NCBI RefSeq assembly: GCF_015223105.1
Contig: NZ_JADFTZ010000001.1
Location: forward strand, 434,001 to 498,000
Direction: 5' to 3'
Length of the DNA stretch: 64,000 nucleotides
From: Flavobacterium proteolyticum
GTDB lineage: Bacteria; Bacteroidota; Bacteroidia; Flavobacteriales; Flavobacteriaceae
Below the pieces are notes generated by a model that worked only from the letters and a program-made list of their open reading frames with translations, was not told where the DNA came from and did not search any database. The translations under genes and the position numbers were made by a program. Numbering within the stretch: position 1 is the stretch's first letter; each line of letters begins with the position of its first letter. Shown in pieces: positions 4,196 through 59,430 of the stretch.

Positions 4196-7048
4196 ATGTC
4201 ACAAAAACGCCTTTTTTTACTCGATGCTTACGCCTTAATTTTCAGAGGTTACTATGCTTTTATAAAAAATCCTCGTATCAATTCGAAAGGAATGGATACT
4301 TCTGCCATTATGGGATTCATGAATTCTTTAATGGATGTAATTAAACGCGAAAAACCTGACCATTTAGCCGTAGCATTTGATAAAGGCGGAAGTGATTACC
4401 GTTTCGAAATGTATCAAGAATACAAAGCGCATCGTGACGAAACACCTGAAGCGATTAAAATTGCTGTTCCCTATATTCAAGAATTGTTGAAAGCAATGCA
4501 CATTCCAATTATCGAAAAAGCAGGTTTTGAAGCAGATGATTTGATTGGGACATTAGCCAAACAAGCCGAAAAAGAAGGTTTTCAAGTGTTCATGGTAACG
4601 CCAGATAAGGATTTTGCCCAATTGGTTTCGGAAAATATTTTCATGTACAAACCTGCCCGAATGGGGAATGATATCGAAATCTGGGGAATTCCTGAAGTCT
4701 TAGAAAAATTTGAAATCGAGCGTCCTGACCAAGTAATAGATTTCTTAGGAATGATGGGTGATTCTGCCGATAATATTCCAGGATTGCCTGGTGTGGGAGA
4801 AAAAACAGCTAAGAAATTCTTAGCAGAATATGGCACTTTAGAGAATTTATTAGCTAACACGCACCAATTGAAAGGCGCGATGAAAGATAAAATCGAAGCC
4901 AACAAAGAATTAGGGCTTTTATCTAAAAAGTTAGCTACTATCCTACTCGATTGTCCGGTGACTTTTGATGCGGATGATTTTGAATTATCAAAACCAGATG
5001 TGGAGAAAACCGATGCTTTGTTTCAGGAATTAGAATTCCGCCAAATGAAAGCGCAGTTTGATAAATTATTTGGTTCAGGTAAAGAATATGATGAAATTGA
5101 CACTAACGGAACAACTTCAGATTCGCCACAACCCACTAAAAAATCTCCTGCAAAAAAATCAAACGAAGATCAATTCGACTTATTTGGTTTTAGCGATGAA
5201 TCGGATGAACCAACTGCGAATCATTCGTATTATGCTACATTAGAAAATACAACGCATTTCTACCAAATAGTTCAAGGTGATTTGCCAGTAAAATTGTTAA
5301 TGCAGAATTTATTAAATCAAACTTCGGTTTGTTTTGATACGGAAACTACTGGAATTGACGCTTTGAATGCTGAATTAGTAGGAATGTCATTCTCTTTTGA
5401 AAAAAGAAAAGGATTTTATGTTCCGTTTCCAGAAAATCAGGAGGAAGCCCAAACGTTAATTGAAAAATTCAGACCATTCTTCGAAAATGAAAGCATCGAA
5501 AAAATCGGTCAGAATATGAAATACGACTTGAAAATTCTTTCGAATTACAACATTCAAGTCAAAGGGAAATTATTCGATACCATGATTGCGCATTATCTGA
5601 TTAATCCAGATATGCGTCATAATATGGATGTGTTATCGGAAACCTATTTGAAATATGCTCCAAAATCGATTGAAACTTTAATTGGTAAAAAAGGGAAAAA
5701 TCAATTGTCGATGCGTGATGTTCCTTTGGAAGACATCAAAGAATATGCGACTGAAGATGCTGATATTACTTTTCAATTGAAGGAACATTTCCAACCAATT
5801 TTAGAAAAAGTAGGTACGAAAAAATTGTTTGACGAAATCGAAATTCCGTTAGTTCCTGTTTTAGCGGATATGGAAAAAGAAGGAATTCGCTTAGATGTAG
5901 ATTTTCTAAAAAGTATGTCGGTTGACATGCAAAAAGAAATCGATGCGTTAGAACAACAAATTTATGAAACCGCTGGTGAGAAATTCAATTTAGCTTCTCC
6001 AAAACAGTTGGGCGATATTTTATTCGACAAACTAAAAATTGGTGGCGCGAAACAAAAGAAAACTAAAACCGGTCAATATGCCACTGGCGAAGAAGTGTTG
6101 AGTTATTTGGCAAATGAAAATCAAATTGTGCGAGATATTTTAGAATGGCGTCAAATGGTGAAATTACAAAGTACGTATATTGATGCTTTACCAAACCAAG
6201 TCGACAAAAAAACAGGTCGCGTTCACACCGATTATATGCAAACGGTTGCCGCTACAGGTCGTTTGAGTTCGAACAATCCGAATTTACAAAACATTCCAAT
6301 TCGTACCGAAAGAGGAAGACAAATTAGAAAAGCCTTCATTGCTCGCGATGAAAACTATACCTTACTTTCTGCCGATTATTCTCAAATTGAATTGCGTATT
6401 ATTGCCGCTTTATGTGGTGAAGAAAACATGATTAAAGCATTTCAAAATCACGAAGACATTCACAAAAGTACGGCTGCAAAAGTGTTCAATGTTCCTTTAG
6501 ATGAAGTGACAAAAGAGCAAAGAAGTCACGCCAAAACCGTAAACTTCGGAATTATTTATGGTGTTTCAGCTTTTGGATTGAGCAACCAAACTAACTTATC
6601 TCGAAAAGAAAGTGCGGAATTAATTGAAGCGTATTACAAAACGTATCCAAGATTAAAATCGTTCATTCAAGAACAAGTTGATTTTGCTAGAGAAAACGGT
6701 TATGTAGAAACTATTTCAGGAAGAAGACGTTATTTAAAAGACATCAACTCAGCCAACGCAATTGTTCGTGGCGGTGCGGAACGAAATGCGGTGAATGCTC
6801 CAATTCAAGGTTCGGCTGCGGATATTATCAAAATTGCGATGATTAACATTCATAAAAAACTGACTTCTGAAAATTGGAAATCAAAAATGTTATTGCAAGT
6901 ACATGACGAATTAGTATTTGATGTGCACAACTCCGAATTAGAAAAAATTCAACCAATGATTAAACATGAAATGGAAAATGCCTTCAAAATGGCAGTTCCG
7001 TTAGATGTGGAAATTGGATTGGGCAAGAATTGGTTGGAAGCGCATTAG
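4196..7048 (+). CDS. polA: DNA polymerase I
   Basis: A 950-residue polymerase for Okazaki-fragment processing and repair. All three modules are present. The 5' nuclease/flap domain covers about 1-290, with TPDKDFAQLV and GDSADNIPGLPGVGEKTA. The 3'-5' exonuclease has intact catalytic motifs: DTETTG with D381/E383, then GQNMKYDLKIL, then YATEDADITF, so proofreading is predicted. The polymerase domain has motif A SADYSQIELR (D727), motif B with KTVNFGIIYG, and motif C QVHDELVFD (D904). The frame is open for about 100 codons upstream, but the ATG at 4196 is chosen because the protein then begins MSQKRLFLLDAYALIFRG as the family does. Confidence 0.97.
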   Translation: MSQKRLFLLDAYALIFRGYYAFIKNPRINSKGMDTSAIMGFMNSLMDVIKREKPDHLAVAFDKGGSDYRFEMYQEYKAHRDETPEAIKIAVPYIQELLKAMHIPIIEKAGFEADDLIGTLAKQAEKEGFQVFMVTPDKDFAQLVSENIFMYKPARMGNDIEIWGIPEVLEKFEIERPDQVIDFLGMMGDSADNIPGLPGVGEKTAKKFLAEYGTLENLLANTHQLKGAMKDKIEANKELGLLSKKLATILLDCPVTFDADDFELSKPDVEKTDALFQELEFRQMKAQFDKLFGSGKEYDEIDTNGTTSDSPQPTKKSPAKKSNEDQFDLFGFSDESDEPTANHSYYATLENTTHFYQIVQGDLPVKLLMQNLLNQTSVCFDTETTGIDALNAELVGMSFSFEKRKGFYVPFPENQEEAQTLIEKFRPFFENESIEKIGQNMKYDLKILSNYNIQVKGKLFDTMIAHYLINPDMRHNMDVLSETYLKYAPKSIETLIGKKGKNQLSMRDVPLEDIKEYATEDADITFQLKEHFQPILEKVGTKKLFDEIEIPLVPVLADMEKEGIRLDVDFLKSMSVDMQKEIDALEQQIYETAGEKFNLASPKQLGDILFDKLKIGGAKQKKTKTGQYATGEEVLSYLANENQIVRDILEWRQMVKLQSTYIDALPNQVDKKTGRVHTDYMQTVAATGRLSSNNPNLQNIPIRTERGRQIRKAFIARDENYTLLSADYSQIELRIIAALCGEENMIKAFQNHEDIHKSTAAKVFNVPLDEVTKEQRSHAKTVNFGIIYGVSAFGLSNQTNLSRKESAELIEAYYKTYPRLKSFIQEQVDFARENGYVETISGRRRYLKDINSANAIVRGGAERNAVNAPIQGSAADIIKIAMINIHKKLTSENWKSKMLLQVHDELVFDVHNSELEKIQPMIKHEMENAFKMAVPLDVEIGLGKNWLEAH

Positions 7049-25487: not shown

Positions 25488-26138
25488 TTAAAAATCAAAT
25501 GAAAAATTTCTAGAAATAGGCATTTCGAACTCGTTAATTTTTAAAGAAGAAGATTTCTTTTGCGTAACTTTTGATTTATTAACCACATAAGAACGATGCA
25601 CTCGACAAAATATATCGGAATCTAATTCTTTATAAAAGTTATCAAGAGTATTTCGGATGGTTATGGTTCTATTTGTTAATTGAATATCAACATAATTCTT
25701 ATCGCTTTTTAGAAAAAGAATGTCTTCAAAATTTACTTTTACCTCATCAAATCCATTTTTAACAATTACGTAATTTACCTTGTTCTTTATTTTGGCTAAT
25801 TCAATTGCAGCAATTAAATCGGATTCTTTAACTGGCTTTGTCAAATACGTAACAGGATTTACCTCAAAGGCTTTTAGCATGGTTTCCTTTTCGGTTTGGC
25901 CTGTAATAAAAATAATTTGACTATTTTCTACAAATTCTTTTGCCCATAAAATACCTGTATCTTTACCATTAAGATTGATATCCAATAAAACAATATCTGG
26001 TTTGTTTAGATTCATTTTTTCCGTTGCTTCCTCAACTGTAAAAGCTAACTCAACACCATTTAAACCATTATCATTTAGTAAATTTTTGATATAATTAGCA
26101 ATTAAAACTTGATCTTCAACTATTAATATTTTAGTCAT
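25488..26138 (-). CDS. LytTR-family response regulator
   Basis: About 216 residues. The receiver domain has the acidic pair in VEDQ, the phosphoacceptor Asp53 in LLDINLNG, and the Lys in YLTKPVKESD. The C-terminal LytTR DNA-binding domain includes ILFLKSDKNYVDIQL and FCRVHRSYVVN. The ATG at 26138 is preferred over the TTG six bases upstream. It overlaps the kinase gene stop by eight bases, so the two are cotranscribed, kinase first. Likely targets include the surface-protein operon 88 bases downstream, but this is inference. Confidence 0.9.
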   Translation of the reverse strand: MTKILIVEDQVLIANYIKNLLNDNGLNGVELAFTVEEATEKMNLNKPDIVLLDINLNGKDTGILWAKEFVENSQIIFITGQTEKETMLKAFEVNPVTYLTKPVKESDLIAAIELAKIKNKVNYVIVKNGFDEVKVNFEDILFLKSDKNYVDIQLTNRTITIRNTLDNFYKELDSDIFCRVHRSYVVNKSKVTQKKSSSLKINEFEMPISRNFSFDF

Positions 26139-27804
26139 TTTCAAATGATTTTATAAAATTTAAATGAAATCCGTTATTGATAATAATTTCTGGTTGTACT
26201 CCCAATTGTTGACATAATTGTTTTACCAAAATTGGATTAATCTCCTTAGAATTGTTTTTTTGACCATTATCAGAATAGCTAAATTCAAACTGATTTTGAA
26301 TCTTTATTATTTCAATTGCAATATTTTTTATTTGATCCTCTTTAAAAGCATATTTTACAGAATTCATGATTAATTCTGTCACCAATAAACCCATATACAT
26401 TGCAGAATCTGAATCTGAACTTATACTATCCGCTTTTAATTTTAAATCTATATTTTCATAAGTACATATTTCTGAAAAACTCTCTCCAATTTTTGCAAAA
26501 TACAATTGTAAATCTATCGTTTTTTTATCCTTTGAAGCATACAATTCCCTATGTAATAATGCAATTGACTGAATTTTGGATTGTAATCGAATTAAATCTT
26601 TATTTTCCTTATTCTCAGTTTTATTTTTTCTAATTGTTTCATTAATTAATAAACTGATTAATTGAAGATTATTATTAACCCGATGATTTGTTTCGCTTAC
26701 TAAAAACTCATTTTCTTTATTTAATTTTTCAAGCGTTTTTTTTGATTTTCTTATTTTGTTGCTATAAAACCATAAAGTTGCCAAACCAGTAAATAAAAAA
26801 AGTAGAATAACAAACAATAATAATAAATTCTTTCTTGATGCAACAAGTTCTTTTTCTTTCTTTTGAATAATATAATTATTTTCTAATAATTCATATTTTT
26901 TCTTGTTTTCATATTCATTTAATAGACTATTAATACCATTTAATGAATCTGAATAATGCATGGCGTTTTCATAATCTTTACTTAAAAAAGTAGTGTTTTT
27001 TAATTCATTATAAATCTGTTGCATTTGCCAAAGATTATTTATTTCTTTTGCTTTCTTTAATCCTTTTTGATAATAATAAATTGCTTTTGAGAAATAGCCC
27101 TCTTTTTGTTGGTAATATCTACCTAAATTGATAGAAACGTCAACATAAGCTATTTTTGCATCATATTTTTCCGCTACTTTGAAAGCTTTTAGAAAATAAT
27201 AAAGAGCGGTTTTAGGCTCCTCAACAAAACTTAAAAAACCTATTTCATTTAAAGTATAAACAATAATTGATTTATCTTTTATTTTAACTTGATCGGCAAG
27301 AATCAAATTACTCAGTTTGTGTATTTTTACAACAGAATCTTGAATATTATTATAATATTGTGCCAGAATTGCTATTCGTCTATTTAAATAGTGATATTTA
27401 TATTCCGAATTATTACTTTTTAAAAATAATTTTTCTGCTTTATATATAAAATCATTTGCTAAATTTCTATTTCCTACATATCTTGAAATTTCAGCCTTTA
27501 CAACTAAAATATGGAAAAGTTCATCTGTATCATTTAATTTACTAAAAGTCTTTTCTGCACTTTCAAGATAATAAAAACAACTATCAGATTTTGCTAAGGA
27601 TTTTAAAACTTCTGCATATCTAATTTTTATTAAAGCTTTTTTCTTAGGACTGATTTTTTCATTTCGAAGCTCACTAAGTATAATTACTCTCGCAGAATCA
27701 TATTGAGAATTTTCAATAAAATACTGCAATCGTTGATCAAAATTATTTTGTGAAAAAACACTTTGAAGAATTAAGCAAAAAAATATTGTAGTTATTATTC
27801 TCAA
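26131..27804 (-). CDS. TPR histidine kinase (HisKA_2 type)
   Basis: 557 residues. After a signal peptide (QSVFSQ) a periplasmic region of TPR-like helical repeats spans roughly 25-300. A coiled coil and a membrane helix (LLLLFVILLFLFTGLATLWF) follow. The cytoplasmic part has a HisKA_2 phosphorylation motif ETNHRVNNNLQL with His near 374, the N box LLVTELIMNSVKYAF and the G1 box YSDNG; the rest of the ATPase domain is short. This is the common Bacteroidota TPR-kinase/LytTR pairing. Confidence 0.9.
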   Translation of the reverse strand: MRIITTIFFCLILQSVFSQNNFDQRLQYFIENSQYDSARVIILSELRNEKISPKKKALIKIRYAEVLKSLAKSDSCFYYLESAEKTFSKLNDTDELFHILVVKAEISRYVGNRNLANDFIYKAEKLFLKSNNSEYKYHYLNRRIAILAQYYNNIQDSVVKIHKLSNLILADQVKIKDKSIIVYTLNEIGFLSFVEEPKTALYYFLKAFKVAEKYDAKIAYVDVSINLGRYYQQKEGYFSKAIYYYQKGLKKAKEINNLWQMQQIYNELKNTTFLSKDYENAMHYSDSLNGINSLLNEYENKKKYELLENNYIIQKKEKELVASRKNLLLLFVILLFLFTGLATLWFYSNKIRKSKKTLEKLNKENEFLVSETNHRVNNNLQLISLLINETIRKNKTENKENKDLIRLQSKIQSIALLHRELYASKDKKTIDLQLYFAKIGESFSEICTYENIDLKLKADSISSDSDSAMYMGLLVTELIMNSVKYAFKEDQIKNIAIEIIKIQNQFEFSYSDNGQKNNSKEINPILVKQLCQQLGVQPEIIINNGFHLNFIKSFEND

Positions 27805-53440: not shown

Positions 53441-56400
53441 TTATTGCTTATTTAATAGCGCTTCTAATTTTGCTAATCTCTCTTCTAAAGAACTAATCTT
53501 TTCTTCTTGTTTTTGTATGTTTTTTTGCTGTTCTTTTATAGCTTCAATTAATAAAGGTGTAATAGCAGCATAGTCTACAAAATAATCACCATCTTTACTT
53601 TTCTGAATCGCTTCTGGTAGTACTTTTTCTAATTCTTGCGCCAATACCCCACTGCTTTTTATTGGTTCTTTTCCTTTTTCAATTTCTTTATGATCTTGTT
53701 TAAATTGATAAGTATAACCGCTAATTGCTAGAATCTTTTCAAGGGCATTATTTATTTTTTCGATGTTTTCCTTTTTATTTTTATCTGAAATTTGCACATA
53801 AGCACCAGCTGGAGAGATATAACTTTTTAAAGCAGTATTGTCATATGGATTAGTATTGGTAGCATCAAATTGATCTTCATCCAAAAAATATACCAATGCC
53901 GGTGGCTGACCTAAATTTCCATCACCAGGTGACCAAATAGAAACAGCATTTCCATCTCCATAAATTCCACCTGTTTCACCAACTCCTTCTCTTGAACTCA
54001 ACAGAAATTCGTTTTGTCCCGTTCCAAAATCTTGATTACCAGAAGAATGCGCAAAAACACTTGTATTATTGAGCTGTAATTCTTCTGCATCAGCTGGATT
54101 TTTATGAACTTTTACAACGCCATTAATTTTAATAATATCATTATCGAATTCGCCATAAATAAGAGGAGTTGATGAATTACTATTCTCTATGTATAATTTA
54201 TTAGATCCTATTTCATTATAACCTGCTTGATATCCAATTGCTATATTATCACTTCCACTTATATTATTATATAATGCCTCAGACCCAATAGTAATATTAT
54301 ATGCACCGTTATCATTATTAAATAAAGCTTGACTACCTATCGCAATATTTCTATTCCCAATAGTATTATTTACTAAAGTTGAAAAACCAATTCCAATATT
54401 TCCAACACCAGAGGTATTTCGAAATAAGGCATTAAAACCTAGTGCTGTATTTGAATTACCGGTAGTATTATAAAACATACTTCTTGTACCAACTGAAGTA
54501 TTACTACTTCCAGATACATTAAGTTGTAATGTAGCATTTCCAATAGCTACGTTATCTACCCCATTAATATTATCTTTTAACGTTGAATTTCCAACTCCCG
54601 TATTATAAACCCCCGTTGTATTATCTTCTAAAGAATTTAATCCTAAAGCTACATTATTACTACCTGAAGTATTATATCGTAACGCATTATTACCTAAAGC
54701 TAAGTTAAATGAAGCCGAAATACTTGAATTAAGAGCCATAGATCCTATGGCTAAGTTTGAATTACCAGAAACATTATTAGCCAATGCACTTGAGCCAATA
54801 GCTGTATTAAAATTACCAACCGTATTACCAAATAATGCTTGATATCCAATTGCACAATTATAACTAGCCGTTGTATTATTATGCAAAGCTTCAAAACCTA
54901 CCCCTAAATTATAACTACCTATTGTATTAAGTGTTAATGCTTTATGTAGTGCCAAATTAAAGCTTCCTGATGTATTCGAATTCAAAGCACCATACCCTAA
55001 AGCAACATTTGATGATCCATTAATATTTGCTCTTAATGCATTAACACCTATTGCTGTATTAGAAAAACCGGTGGTATTACTATTTAAAGCTTCTGCTCCA
55101 AATGCTGTATTGGTAATTTCAATTTTACCAGCAACAAGTCCATTTCTTTTGAATATTAAATCAACATTATCTGTAGTCCCAATAAAATTTGTTCCAGCAA
55201 CTGTAGCTGAATTTCCATTCGTAGACCAATAATTACTTCCAATAACCGCACTTACATTTTGCCAAGTAACATTACCAACACCATCAGTTTGCATAATTTG
55301 ACCTAAAGTTCCCCTGTTTGACGGTAATATATATTTATCAGCATCAGAAGTTCCTATCGCAACTCTTCCTAAAAAATAGCCCGCAAAACTATTCGCTTTT
55401 AAAGCACTTGAATACACACCATAATGCACGCCTCCAGCAGAAGGATTAATAGTGTTAAAAATTCCATATTTATTTCCTGTTCCAGAACCATTAATTTCAC
55501 TTTTTACGCCAACTAAACTACCATTACCTGAATTGGAAACAAAATTATTTAATCCATAAAAATCCCCATTGCCATTACCTAAAATTTCATTGTAAAAACC
55601 AAATTTTGCTTGACCTCCAATTCCATCAAAACTATTTCTATAACCGTAGTTAATTCCATTTGCTGTAGGATCATTAATAAATTGATTATAAGAACCTGTT
55701 TTAGGCTGCATACTGGTGTCTTCAAATTTGTTAAATGTTCCTAAGAGAGCAAAAGTTGGAGTTCCTGAAAAATAATTATAAAGCCCAACTTGTTGATTAG
55801 CGGTACCTGAAAACACATTATGAACTCCGTAGCGAACACCAGTTCCTGAATTAAAATTATTACTCAATCCAAATCGAGTTCCAGACCCCGAAACAAAAAA
55901 AGCATTTCTATATCCACAAACTTCATTTGAAGAAGTTCCGTTATATAGATTATTTGTACCAATACCCATCACAGAATTAGACAAACTCATTGAATTATTT
56001 AATCCATAATAAATCCCGTTAGTATTAATCCCAGAATTTATACTTGTTTTTAACACTTCTATGTTTAAATTATTACCTGGATTTATATGTTCGAAATTAG
56101 CAACTCTTGTCTTAGCAACATTAGATTCTTTTATATCTAATTTATAAAGAGGATTTACCTCTCCAATACCAACATTACCATTATGGAACATATTATCATT
56201 AATGCTTGTTGGAGCACTTGTAGTAGCAACTTTATACCAATCAGCATCCTCATTCCCTTTTAAAGAAATCCATGAAGTTGTCGTATTATCCCAATAATAA
56301 AATCCAGGTAAATTAACTCCTACTATTGTAGTCAAATACACCATCATTCCCTGCTGATCAGCTGTAGGATTAACTACTGGAAAAGCATCAATTTTAGGAA

Positions 56401-56548
56401 TTAAAATTCCATCTGTATTACTTGGAAAAGCTTGATTCGAGGATTTTATATCTAGCTGTGCATTGGGTGTCGTAGTGTTTATTCCAACCTGACTCGAACA
56501 AACCTGAATAAAAAATAACGATACAAAAACTGAAATATATTTAAACAT
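53441..56548 (-). CDS. Large surface protein with 17-residue repeats and S74 chaperone domain
   Basis: 1035 residues. A signal peptide is followed by a head starting SQVGINTTTPNAQLDIKSSN, common in Bacteroidota surface fibres. Residues about 482-784 contain some 17 repeats of 17 residues with the form AIGxxALxxNxxGxxN, like trimeric beta-roll adhesin heads. The C-terminus is a Peptidase_S74 intramolecular chaperone (SDKNKKENIEKI, SGVLAQELEKVLPEA, DYAAITPLLIEAIKEQQ) ending in a coiled coil. This domain trims and trimerises tail spikes and fibres. No T9SS sorting domain is seen. It is divergent from a LytTR regulator. Confidence 0.85.
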   Translation of the reverse strand: MFKYISVFVSLFFIQVCSSQVGINTTTPNAQLDIKSSNQAFPSNTDGILIPKIDAFPVVNPTADQQGMMVYLTTIVGVNLPGFYYWDNTTTSWISLKGNEDADWYKVATTSAPTSINDNMFHNGNVGIGEVNPLYKLDIKESNVAKTRVANFEHINPGNNLNIEVLKTSINSGINTNGIYYGLNNSMSLSNSVMGIGTNNLYNGTSSNEVCGYRNAFFVSGSGTRFGLSNNFNSGTGVRYGVHNVFSGTANQQVGLYNYFSGTPTFALLGTFNKFEDTSMQPKTGSYNQFINDPTANGINYGYRNSFDGIGGQAKFGFYNEILGNGNGDFYGLNNFVSNSGNGSLVGVKSEINGSGTGNKYGIFNTINPSAGGVHYGVYSSALKANSFAGYFLGRVAIGTSDADKYILPSNRGTLGQIMQTDGVGNVTWQNVSAVIGSNYWSTNGNSATVAGTNFIGTTDNVDLIFKRNGLVAGKIEITNTAFGAEALNSNTTGFSNTAIGVNALRANINGSSNVALGYGALNSNTSGSFNLALHKALTLNTIGSYNLGVGFEALHNNTTASYNCAIGYQALFGNTVGNFNTAIGSSALANNVSGNSNLAIGSMALNSSISASFNLALGNNALRYNTSGSNNVALGLNSLEDNTTGVYNTGVGNSTLKDNINGVDNVAIGNATLQLNVSGSSNTSVGTRSMFYNTTGNSNTALGFNALFRNTSGVGNIGIGFSTLVNNTIGNRNIAIGSQALFNNDNGAYNITIGSEALYNNISGSDNIAIGYQAGYNEIGSNKLYIENSNSSTPLIYGEFDNDIIKINGVVKVHKNPADAEELQLNNTSVFAHSSGNQDFGTGQNEFLLSSREGVGETGGIYGDGNAVSIWSPGDGNLGQPPALVYFLDEDQFDATNTNPYDNTALKSYISPAGAYVQISDKNKKENIEKINNALEKILAISGYTYQFKQDHKEIEKGKEPIKSSGVLAQELEKVLPEAIQKSKDGDYFVDYAAITPLLIEAIKEQQKNIQKQEEKISSLEERLAKLEALLNKQ
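54195..55105 (-). repeat. Tandem 51-base coding repeats
   Basis: About 17 units of 51 bases code 17-residue motifs such as AIGVNALRANINGSSNV and ALGYGALNSNTSGSFNL. Units differ at many third positions, so the array is old or under selection. Confidence 0.8.
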
Positions 56549-56564
56549 AAGTAGATTTTTTATT

Positions 56565-56572
56565 CAAAAATA
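56565..56572 (-). promoter_or_regulatory. Candidate -10 element of the S74 surface protein gene
   Basis: TATTTTTG on the minus strand, 17 bases before the ATG. The direct repeats at 56601-56630 lie about 29 bases further upstream. Confidence 0.55.
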
Positions 56573-56600
56573 TTTTTAAAAAACATTATTTATTAAATTA

Positions 56601-56630
56601 ATAGACAAATAACATTTTAAATAGACAAAT
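56601..56630. promoter_or_regulatory. Direct-repeat regulator site (LytTR type)
   Basis: ATAGACAAAT occurs twice, at 56601-56610 and 56621-56630, with a ten-base spacer, so the copies are two helical turns apart. LytTR proteins bind such paired direct repeats. The site lies between the S74 protein gene and a LytTR regulator gene. Confidence 0.65.
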
Positions 56631-56642
56631 GAAAAAAAATTG

Positions 56643-56650
56643 TATTTTTG
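56643..56650 (+). promoter_or_regulatory. Candidate -10 element of the LytTR regulator gene
   Basis: TATTTTTG matches TAnnTTTG. The predicted start near 56657 excludes a start codon at 56648 and supports the ATG at 56669. Confidence 0.6.
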
Positions 56651-56668: not shown

Positions 56669-57373
56669 ATGAGTCGTTTAAATTGCATAATAATTGATGA
56701 TGAAGAAATTGACAGATTAACGATTTTATCGTATGTCAAGAAATTTTCATTTATCGAAATTAAAGGTGTTTTTTGTTCTGCAACAGAAGCACTAAACAGC
56801 AATTTGATCGATGACATAGACATCCTTTTTTCAGATATTGACATGCCAACTCTTTCGGGTTTGGAATTTAGAAAACAAGTAAAAAACATACCCGTTTGCG
56901 TGTTTATAACTTCACATCCTGAACATGCAGCAGAAAGCTTTGAATTAGAAACATTTGATTTTCTAATCAAACCATTACAATTTGATCGTTTTCAAAATAC
57001 AATTTCGAGAATTGAACTGTATTTTTCTATGCGAAATAAAGCCAATTTATTTGATAAAATTGAAAATCAAGATGAAATTTATATCAAAGAAGGGCATTCA
57101 CAAATTAAATTGAAACGCGAAGATATTCTTTATCTTGAAGCGTTAAAAGATTACACTTTAGTGGTTACTCAAAATAAAAAACATTGTGTATTGAGTAGTC
57201 TTGGAAACTTACTTAAAGAAAACCATTTTAATTCATTTGTGAGAATTCATAGAAGTTTTGCCATTCAAAAGAACTTCATAAAAAAAATTGGACCAAATGA
57301 CGTTTGTTTAAATAATAATATTTCAATTCCTATTGGTAGAAGTTATAAAGAAAACTTAAAACTTATAGTATGA
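56669..57373 (+). CDS. LytTR-family response regulator
   Basis: 234 residues. The receiver has the acidic pair IIIDDEEID, the phosphoacceptor Asp56 in LFSDIDMPTLSG, and Lys in DFLIKPLQFD. The LytTR domain includes ILYLEALKDYTLVVT and FVRIHRSFAIQKNFI. It overlaps the kinase gene by four bases (ATGA). A paired direct repeat upstream is a likely binding site for autoregulation and for control of the divergent surface protein. Confidence 0.92.
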   Translation: MSRLNCIIIDDEEIDRLTILSYVKKFSFIEIKGVFCSATEALNSNLIDDIDILFSDIDMPTLSGLEFRKQVKNIPVCVFITSHPEHAAESFELETFDFLIKPLQFDRFQNTISRIELYFSMRNKANLFDKIENQDEIYIKEGHSQIKLKREDILYLEALKDYTLVVTQNKKHCVLSSLGNLLKENHFNSFVRIHRSFAIQKNFIKKIGPNDVCLNNNISIPIGRSYKENLKLIV

Positions 57374-59430
57374 GGTTTGCAAAGTTCTTTTTGATACTAT
57401 TTTCTCTTTTATCTTTTGGACAAACCAATACATTCTTAGAAAAATTATCTAATCAATGTGAAATCATAAAGAACAATGGAGAATATAAGAAATTAATTCA
57501 GATTGCTTCGTTAGGCATATCCAAATCTGACAACAATTACGATAAATCAAAATTCAACTTTTACAAAGGTTATGGATTTGAATATGACAATAATCAATAC
57601 GATAAGGCTATTCCATATTTTGAAAATTCTTTAAAATTTGCTCAAAAAGGAAAGTATTTAGAACAAGAAACTCTTGCTTTAATGCGATTAAATTATTTGT
57701 ACTATTCTACTAAAAAATTTAAAGAAAGAGATCAATTAATTGAGTATATAAAAACGATTGTTGACACTACTAAAAGTGTTTATTCTAAAGGAATATTATT
57801 TGGAAGTTTGGGCGAATATTATTTAGACAAATCGGAAATTTCTAAGTTTATTGATTACAAATTAAAAGCAATTGAATTCCGAAAAAAATTTCCTAAAACA
57901 GATAATAATAATTTTGTAAATATTGGTATTTCGTATTCTCAAATTGGACAAGCTTACATAAAGATGAAACAATTTAGGAAAGGATTGGAATATTGCAACC
58001 TTGCAAAACCCTATTTGAAAGAATCTGCAAATGCAATGGCTTTTTTACACAATGATTTTATTAAATGTTATTGGGGTTTACAAAATTTAGATAGCCTAGT
58101 TTCGCACAGAAATAAAATTTACGGCTTAGTTACTAAAGACGATTCTTTGTTTTTGAGTTTAAGTTCTGCAAACAGATATTTAGCGGAATATTATGTAGAC
58201 AAAAAACAATTAAGCAAAGCAAATTCTTATTTAAAAGAAGCAGATTATTTTGGGTTAAAATCAAAGGACACTGAGATTTTAATGGAGATTAATCTTACTC
58301 GAGGCAAAATATTTTTTGAACAAAAAAACTATAAAGAAGCAATCTCAATTTTAAAAGAAGCTTCTGTTCATGCATATGAATTTGATAAAACAGTTTTTAT
58401 TACTATAAACAAACTTATTGCAAAAAGTTACAAAGCACAAGCAAATTGGAAGGAAGCATTGCATTATTTTGAAATTTATAACAAAGTAAATGAAGAGGTT
58501 TTAAAAGAATCTACAAAACAAAGCATTGCCAACGCCGAAGCAAAATTTCAAAATCAATACAAACAAGAAAAAATTGATTTACTTTCTGCAGAAAATAAAT
58601 TGAAAAATGCTGAAATCGAAAACTCAAAGAAGCAAAAAATATACTTTTTTATTGGTTTTTCTTTACTCTTAATAATTGCTTTTCTTTTATTTAAACAAAG
58701 TGAAAATAGAAAAAAATCGAATCTAAAACTACAAGTTTTAAATTACGAGCTTGAAGAAGCAAACAAAGCTAAACTTCGTTTTTTAAATATTTTAAATCAC
58801 GACTTAAGAAGTCCAGTTGCGAGTTTAATTCAATTTTTACATCTAAAAAAAGAAAGCCCAGATTTATTAGATGAGGTAAGTAAAACTCGTTTGGAACAAA
58901 AAACAATAGCTGGTGCAGAAAATCTTCTAAACTCAATGGAAGACATTTTGTTGTGGAGCAAAGGACAGATGGAAAACTTTAAACCTCAGCCAGAAAAAAT
59001 CAATATTTCTGAATTATTTCATGATATTAAAAATCATTTTTCTAGCACTGAAAACATTACAATTCAATTTGAAAATAATTCAAATATCAAATTATTTACC
59101 GACCAAAATTTCCTAAAAACCATAATGCGAAATTTAACTGGAAACGCCATAAAGGCTCTTGAAAATATTGATAACCCAATGATCATTTGGAAAGCTTGGA
59201 ATGAAAACAACACAACTTTTATTTCAATTACAGACAATGGTAAAGGAGCAACTATTGAGCAATTTAAAGCATTATACGATGAAAAAGAAATTGTTGGAAT
59301 TAAAACTGGTCTTGGACTTCATTTAATTAGAGATTTAGCCAAAATGATTGATTGTGAAATTAACGTAGAAACATCGGAAAACAAAGGAACCAAAGTTGTT
59401 TTAAAACAAAAAAGGCCCAACTTTCGTTGA
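57370..59430 (+). CDS. TPR sensor histidine kinase
   Basis: 686 residues. A signal peptide (SLLSFGQ) precedes a periplasmic domain with several TPR-like repeats (for example GYGFEYDNNQYDKAIPYFENSLKFA), a coiled coil and one membrane helix near 420-440 (IYFFIGFSLLLIIAFLLF). The kinase core has the H box LNILNHDLRSPVASL with His477, the N box IMRNLTGNAIKAL, G1 ITDNGKGA and G2 TGLGLHLIRDLAKM. It is translationally coupled to the regulator gene, which precedes it. Confidence 0.92.
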   Translation: MRFAKFFLILFSLLSFGQTNTFLEKLSNQCEIIKNNGEYKKLIQIASLGISKSDNNYDKSKFNFYKGYGFEYDNNQYDKAIPYFENSLKFAQKGKYLEQETLALMRLNYLYYSTKKFKERDQLIEYIKTIVDTTKSVYSKGILFGSLGEYYLDKSEISKFIDYKLKAIEFRKKFPKTDNNNFVNIGISYSQIGQAYIKMKQFRKGLEYCNLAKPYLKESANAMAFLHNDFIKCYWGLQNLDSLVSHRNKIYGLVTKDDSLFLSLSSANRYLAEYYVDKKQLSKANSYLKEADYFGLKSKDTEILMEINLTRGKIFFEQKNYKEAISILKEASVHAYEFDKTVFITINKLIAKSYKAQANWKEALHYFEIYNKVNEEVLKESTKQSIANAEAKFQNQYKQEKIDLLSAENKLKNAEIENSKKQKIYFFIGFSLLLIIAFLLFKQSENRKKSNLKLQVLNYELEEANKAKLRFLNILNHDLRSPVASLIQFLHLKKESPDLLDEVSKTRLEQKTIAGAENLLNSMEDILLWSKGQMENFKPQPEKINISELFHDIKNHFSSTENITIQFENNSNIKLFTDQNFLKTIMRNLTGNAIKALENIDNPMIIWKAWNENNTTFISITDNGKGATIEQFKALYDEKEIVGIKTGLGLHLIRDLAKMIDCEINVETSENKGTKVVLKQKRPNFR

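Follow-up and report, generated by a model that had tools for sequence, protein, structure and literature searches.

The window, by which we mean the whole 64,000-nt stretch of Flavobacterium proteolyticum DNA analysed here, is part of a 2.83-Mb assembly and contains two divergent genes separated by an intergenic region of 120 nt. The first of these, on the minus strand (53441–56548), encodes a surface fibre of 1035 residues with a signal peptide recognized by eye, and is the predicted target of the regulation considered below. A Peptidase_S74 domain (chaperone of endosialidase, PF13884; residues 921–980, 52.8 bits, E = 5e-14) near the C-terminus places this protein among the S74 fibres. The second gene, on the plus strand (56669–57373), encodes a LytTR response regulator of 234 residues. 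Its receiver domain (PF00072, 45.9 bits) carries D10–D11, D56 and K101, which by homology we take to be the phosphorylation residues, and its LytTR DNA-binding domain (PF04397, residues 146–232) reaches 56 bits against a cut-off of 22.6. The regulator gene overlaps by 4 nt the gene of a TPR sensor histidine kinase of 686 residues (57370–59430, plus strand), for which HATPase_c scores above its cut-off and HisKA gives a match of 19.6 bits, below the cut-off of 26.9; a membrane segment starting at about residue 424 and the likely phospho-acceptor H477 were both located by eye. The receiver residues together with the adjacent histidine kinase point to a two-component system of the LytTR type.

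Two other loci of the same genome should be mentioned here. A second pair, composed of a TPR-like kinase and a LytTR-like regulator (by eye), lies at 25488–27804 of the window on the minus strand, with the kinase gene first; its only moderate match to the matrix described below (11.7 bits), at 27369–27404 (minus strand), falls inside the kinase gene and was rejected. The source genome also has a second S74 gene, encoding 694 residues (G000:C9:1213609; L291:9394–11478, minus strand), which has no site of the kind described below and may have a different control.

The repeat between the divergent genes

An exact 11-nt repeat, AATAGACAAAT, occupies positions 56600–56610 and 56620–56630 of the intergenic region, 20 nt from start to start; ATAGACAAAT lies within it, at 56601–56610 and 56621–56630. 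The exact 20-base period described in the initial annotation is confirmed, with an exact unit of 11 nt and a conserved unit of about 14 nt (AATAGACNAACNAC). We assign the two half-sites to the minus strand: the fibre-proximal half-site 1 (56600–56613) reads AATAGACAAATAAC on the plus strand and GTTATTTGTCTATT on the fibre strand, and the fibre-distal half-site 2 (56620–56633), the second copy 20 nt on, reads AATAGACAAATGAA on the plus strand. LytTR targets are described as repeats of 8–13 bp with about 12 bp between them, most often 9 + 12 = 21 (PMC4064291, PMC6193735). The repeats seen here are paired, direct and upstream of a −7 box, with a period of 20 instead of the usual 21; the 'two-turn spacing typical of LytTR' that had been claimed is therefore close to the norm without being exact.

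Matching promoter boxes had been noted on both sides of the repeats, and they are indeed present: TATTTTTG is found at 56643–56650 on the plus strand, before the regulator gene, and at 56565–56572 on the minus strand, before the fibre gene. Both copies fit TAnnTTTG, the −7 box of Bacteroidota sigma-A promoters, which is placed at −12 to −5 in PMC9723704. With the boxes set at this position, which gives inferred transcription starts, half-site 1 would lie at about −40 to −53 and half-site 2 at about −60 to −73 from the fibre start, the position of the former being conserved in the matrix of 99 loci presented below; relative to the inferred regulator start, half-site 2 would lie at −35 to −22. 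A scan of the region for sigma-70 promoters and terminators returned five promoter-like sites for 4.6 expected, and is uninformative because the phylum uses other promoters.

Judged on the window alone, the repeat is weak evidence and suggestive only. Of 20,000 dinucleotide shuffles of the 120 intergenic nucleotides, 154 contain an exact run of at least 11 nt at periods 19–23, and 28 contain one at period 20 alone. The search of the source genome for ATAGACAAAT-N10-ATAGACAAAT that had been suggested recovers the site itself as the single exact match, plus one further place with three mismatches; since the reversed-pattern control gives two matches at up to three mismatches, this second place stands at chance level. 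By the window-type and clade-B patterns (types A and B only; see below), we found no other convincing site in the source genome.

A paired repeat that accompanies one regulator family

Taking the stretches that surround closely related regulator genes (E up to 1e-55) and removing duplicates, we obtained 99 loci, including the window. Such genes are present in 79 of the 398 genomes of the genus, the source genome included. A matrix was seeded with the repeat and then refined on the 99 loci that it scores. Its consensus, AATAGAC(N)AAC(N)AC on either side of ATTTTA, is AATAGACNAACNAC twice, 20 nt apart. It scores above 5 bits in 94 of the 99 loci, against a maximum of 1.7 in mononucleotide shuffles, these counts not being independent events since many of the loci are closely related (44 form one lipoprotein class). 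The site of the window is among the more diverged, at 39.4 bits compared with 53.7 for the best. For 18 further LytTR genes from the genus, the matrix score of the upstream region does not exceed −5.4 bits. It reaches at most −0.5 bits upstream of 80 distant Bacteroidota LytTR genes; these are the best 80 loci of a single-sequence regulator scan, at most 38% identical and with their orientation fixed by tblastn, from which records near the source genome were possibly excluded. As the matrix was refined on its own loci, the check that counts is a matrix-free scan of periods: an exact run of at least 7 nt at period 20 precedes 31 of the 55 regulator genes of one class and 43 of the 44 of the other, and any other period from 8 to 44 is found in at most six loci.

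Five loci have no scoring site beside the regulator (L143, L145, L142_1, L110 and L124). In L124 a repeat is visible with a period of 21, and in L110 (genome G362) the kinase precedes the regulator and the site lies before the kinase gene. One of the 94 sited loci, L131, has a best match that is doubtful.

The site also follows the regulator from genome to genome. With up to three mismatches, the window-type site occurs in 64 of the 398 genomes of the genus, all of them among the 79 with a relative of the regulator; it occurs in none of the 319 genomes of the genus that have no close relative, and the reversed pattern has no match in the 398 genomes. The pattern of a second repeat type, that of clade B, matches ten genomes. 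True clade-B sites occur in eight of these, each of which also encodes a clade-B regulator; in the two others (G362 and G320) the matches are window-type sites within three mismatches. The clade-B regulator itself is present in ten genomes, two of which (G196 and G254) are missed by the site pattern.

The four exact runs of at least 11 nt at periods 19–23 in the whole 64-kb window could suggest a chance repeat in an A+T-rich intergenic region. This explanation, to which we assign a negligible probability, is refuted by the conservation in 94 of 99 loci, by the co-occurrence with the regulator (64 of 79 genomes compared with 0 of 319) and by the period scan: taken with its relatives, the repeat is far beyond chance.

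Target genes, spacing and the predicted mode of control

The target genes of the 94 sited loci, called automatically as the first ATG with at least 80 codons, fall into one lipoprotein family (44 genes), one fibre family (QVGINTT...; 29 genes) and a remainder of 21. A Pfam analysis of 45 of the 94 targets, some of whose ORFs are truncated at the edge of the stretch, identified Peptidase_S74 in 16 and a T9SS sorting tail in four. On the other side, an ORF of at least 150 residues starts near the regulator stop in 94 of 97 loci, with a 4-nt overlap in 67; its kinase domain was checked in the window alone. The class of 44 loci (L062–L109 and others) carries a small lipoprotein cargo (SCSxDDG...), often with collagen-like stretches; its site ends 5–53 nt before the regulator start codon, and many of its loci show TATTTTTG further upstream on the regulator strand. 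In L092 (G166; regulator at 5847–5146), the site and the CAAA on the target side (see below) are kept and the first gene on that side is 343 nt away; it encodes 308 residues with a DUF58-like start, and in the window such a protein lies behind the fibre. L092 is perhaps a cassette that lost its fibre.

On the target side, the TTTG of the −7 box appears as its complement, CAAA, whose first base lies 36 nt before AATAGAC in 74 loci and 35 nt before it in 16. The distance is thus 35 or 36 nt in 90 of the 94 sited loci, being 35 nt in the window, and the four others have no CAAA at either position. The 90 target −7 boxes begin with CA in 65 cases, TA in 11 and GA in eight, the window's own box fitting the consensus, and a TTG is found 17–23 nt upstream of the box in only 16 of the 90. 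These off-consensus target promoters are as expected of promoters that depend on an activator. They argue against a regulator that would bind the repeats and repress the fibre gene, or both divergent genes, until the kinase signal lifts the repression, as does the location of the half-sites, which at about −40 to −73, a conserved distance, would precede the promoter core instead of covering it. Repression would fit the overlap of the distal half-site with the regulator promoter in the window (−35 to −22 relative to its inferred start), and repression by a LytTR regulator has a precedent in AgrA at bsaA (PMC4227749); we nonetheless regard this mode as improbable.

The regulator side is less regular. 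Of the 44 lipoprotein-type loci, 32 show no TAnnTT(T/A) box between site and regulator; of the 50 others, 47 have a first such box that begins 0 to 25 nt beyond the site. A gap of 7 nt between the 36-nt site and the −7 box is common to the window, its nearest relative L061 and L116, and differs elsewhere.

Sites that do not directly precede a regulator gene separate the two sides. Of the 75 matches of the window-type search, 14 do not immediately precede a regulator gene; the clade-B search added three, and these 17 sites were examined. CAAA is found at 36 nt in 15 of them. The exceptions are one site of L118, without CAAA, and the site of L179, which has neither CAAA nor an ORF on the expected side and has an exported-looking ORF on the other. 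Four of the 17 front genes of the fibre family (L181, L137, L034 and L135, by eye from the QVGINT start), another is the G362 site that precedes the kinase gene, and for most of the remainder the product of the gene that they front appears, by eye, to be secreted or lipid-anchored. In L034, L135 and L137, which belong to clade B, a gene of 165–166 residues (MSxYKYVTPYW...) lies between the regulator and the fibre, with one operator before this gene and another before the fibre.

These sites also bear on whether the repeats could serve a different regulator or a leader RNA element. The lipoprotein-type repeats, 5–53 nt before the start codon, would belong to a leader if the regulator promoter were further upstream. 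Yet 15 of the 17 sites found elsewhere are upstream of a −7-like box and not in a leader, the occurrence of the repeats follows the regulator (64 of 79 genomes compared with 0 of 319) and the repeat type follows the regulator clade, so that we give this explanation very little weight.

Beyond the genus, the regulator is present in one of 299 genomes of the window's family (G495, with a site), and 23 of 246 genomes match it at the level of the order at E up to 1e-50. Fifteen loci outside the family were considered, 14 from family f5 and one from Chryseobacterium sp. ISL-6, and a site scoring more than 8 bits is present in 12 of them. For 11 of the 15 (ten from f5 and that of Chryseobacterium), the site is not upstream of the regulator: it follows the end of the regulator gene by no more than about 70 nt and keeps its orientation relative to the next gene, and a codirectional gene was found in ten (none in L281). 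The −7 box of these 11 loci is TAATTTAG in most of those inspected by eye. L270 has its site in the usual place, with CGAA at 36 nt instead of CAAA, and no site was found in the 3.7 kb examined in L273–L275. The position of the site after the regulator and before the next gene indicates that it stays with the target gene and not with the regulator promoter. In L276–L285, where the operator follows the regulator, the gene divergent from the regulator encodes what we take, from its start, to be an HflX-like GTPase.

Control of the regulator's own gene, which had been proposed along with that of the fibre, is only partly supported. In its strongest form, the repeats would only feed back on the regulator–kinase operon and the fibre gene would be an incidental neighbour. 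In LytTR regulatory systems, direct repeats that precede the system's own promoter do serve autoregulation (PMC6193735), and the spacing on the regulator side common to the window, L061 and L116 is in favour of such feedback. However, this spacing varies widely elsewhere, with 32 of the 44 lipoprotein-type loci lacking the box, whereas the spacing on the target side is kept at 15 of the 17 sites that are not directly upstream of a regulator; moreover, the site of the 11 loci outside the family lies away from the regulator promoter, before another gene. Feedback as the sole function is accordingly very unlikely. Autoregulation is plausible in the window and is not the conserved role.

The fibre had been named as the likely target of this two-component system, and comparison between genomes strongly supports this: the site accompanies the regulator (64 of 79 compared with 0 of 319 genomes), a distance of 35 or 36 nt is kept in 90 of 94 loci and four distant copies front fibre genes. 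The regulator very probably controls the fibre gene through the predicted operator, and activation is the most likely outcome. Our best explanation, which we hold with high confidence on these comparative grounds, is that the repeats form a binding site from which the LytTR regulator would switch on the fibre gene. The TPR histidine kinase would phosphorylate the regulator, two subunits of which would bind the two half-sites; separated by about two helical turns, the half-sites would face the same side of the DNA, with their nearer edge about 40 bp before the inferred fibre start. Once bound, the regulator would bring RNA polymerase to the fibre promoter, in which a −7 box is present and a good −33 box is not, and the fibre gene would thereby be turned on, activation being favoured over repression. 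In the window, binding would probably also damp the regulator–kinase operon, whose promoter the distal half-site overlaps.

Regulator clades, cassettes and known systems

In a FastTree phylogeny of the 99 regulator proteins, the groups defined by repeat types B (ten proteins), C (seven), D (four) and E (four) are each monophyletic with a support of 0.997–1.0, the clades having been named with the tree and the sites both in view. Twelve genomes contain two to four sited copies (30 loci), and the nearest site in other genomes belongs to the same clade for 27 of these 30. The similarity between proteins and that between sites show a correlation of 0.70, for a maximum of 0.51 in 2000 within-genome permutations. 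A region of about 25 kb in genome G273 contains types A, B, C and D. Because adjacent genes are inherited together, this tracking of clades speaks for consistency and not yet for insulation: co-descent alone could explain part of it, to which the distant sites provide a partial answer.

Some residues of the regulator vary with the repeat type. Clades B and E have N161 in place of D161 and share unlike half-sites (AAGGA and ATACAC), in opposite order (for example L139 and L127_3); they are not sister clades, in a tree whose backbone is weak. Clade D has C or S163 for T163 and N224 for R224, and T163 is aligned by profile alignment with the AgrA residue that we take to be H169. A residue-to-base code linking positions 161, 163 and 224 to the repeat type is, as read from these sequences, a correlation only.

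A single genome can have as many as four cassettes in about 25 kb (G273, G320). We tentatively suggest that they are expandable and insulated, each one combining a regulator, a TPR kinase and a matching operator that would drive its own giant fibre or surface protein, with unrelated cargo swapped into a promoter of fixed geometry; we see this as a possibility worth considering more than as a probable state of affairs. If it is true, signals could determine which surface fibre a bacterium makes, and at least five types of LytTR specificity would have arisen in one genus, constituting a natural base-reading code. The natural regulator–operator pairs (five types, up to four per genome) offer material for the study of how LytTR domains read DNA and of how paralogous systems stay apart. 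A testable rule also follows for flavobacterial surface proteins: a 36-nt operator, a fixed distance to the −7 box and one regulator family. Among the matches listed in the open-access literature (titles and abstract starts), there is no report on the control of S74 fibres of free-living bacteria, and we recognized none on LytTR or two-component control of S74 fibres in flavobacteria, most subscription journals being outside this scope.

AgrA of Staphylococcus aureus resembles the regulator by its LytTR domain, as detected by profile search (3bs1, E = 4e-4), and by a conserved motif, FhRhHRS, which reads FVRIHRS here. The two systems differ in the sequence of the repeats, the period (20 here) and the promoters, which are of the Bacteroidota type here; the partner is a TPR kinase, whereas AgrC is a peptide sensor, and the targets are surface fibres and lipoproteins. 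The positions of the sites can also be compared: the AgrA repeats are two direct repeats, intergenic and immediately upstream of the agr P2 and P3 promoters, the proximal ones centred near −60 (PMC4227749), and the proximal half-site would be near −46 here.

For AlgR of Pseudomonas aeruginosa (core CCGTTCGTC), the resemblance lies in the consensus target-strand half-site, TCGTTCGTC, which matches the core at eight of nine bases, whereas the half-site of the window, TTATTTGTC, matches it at only five of nine. In addition, AlgR sites are not necessarily paired direct repeats, according to PMC4064291.

The LytTR regulatory systems (LRS) such as HdrRM likewise have direct repeats just upstream of a promoter core, and LRS-like operons of Bacteroides also have repeats (PMC6193735). 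However, an LRS consists of a regulator and a membrane inhibitor and serves autoactivation, whereas here a histidine kinase follows the regulator in place of the inhibitor and the conserved target is another gene. The system described here is of the LytTR two-component kind, of which it is a new member, and its interesting part is the organization into expandable, and possibly insulated, cassettes.
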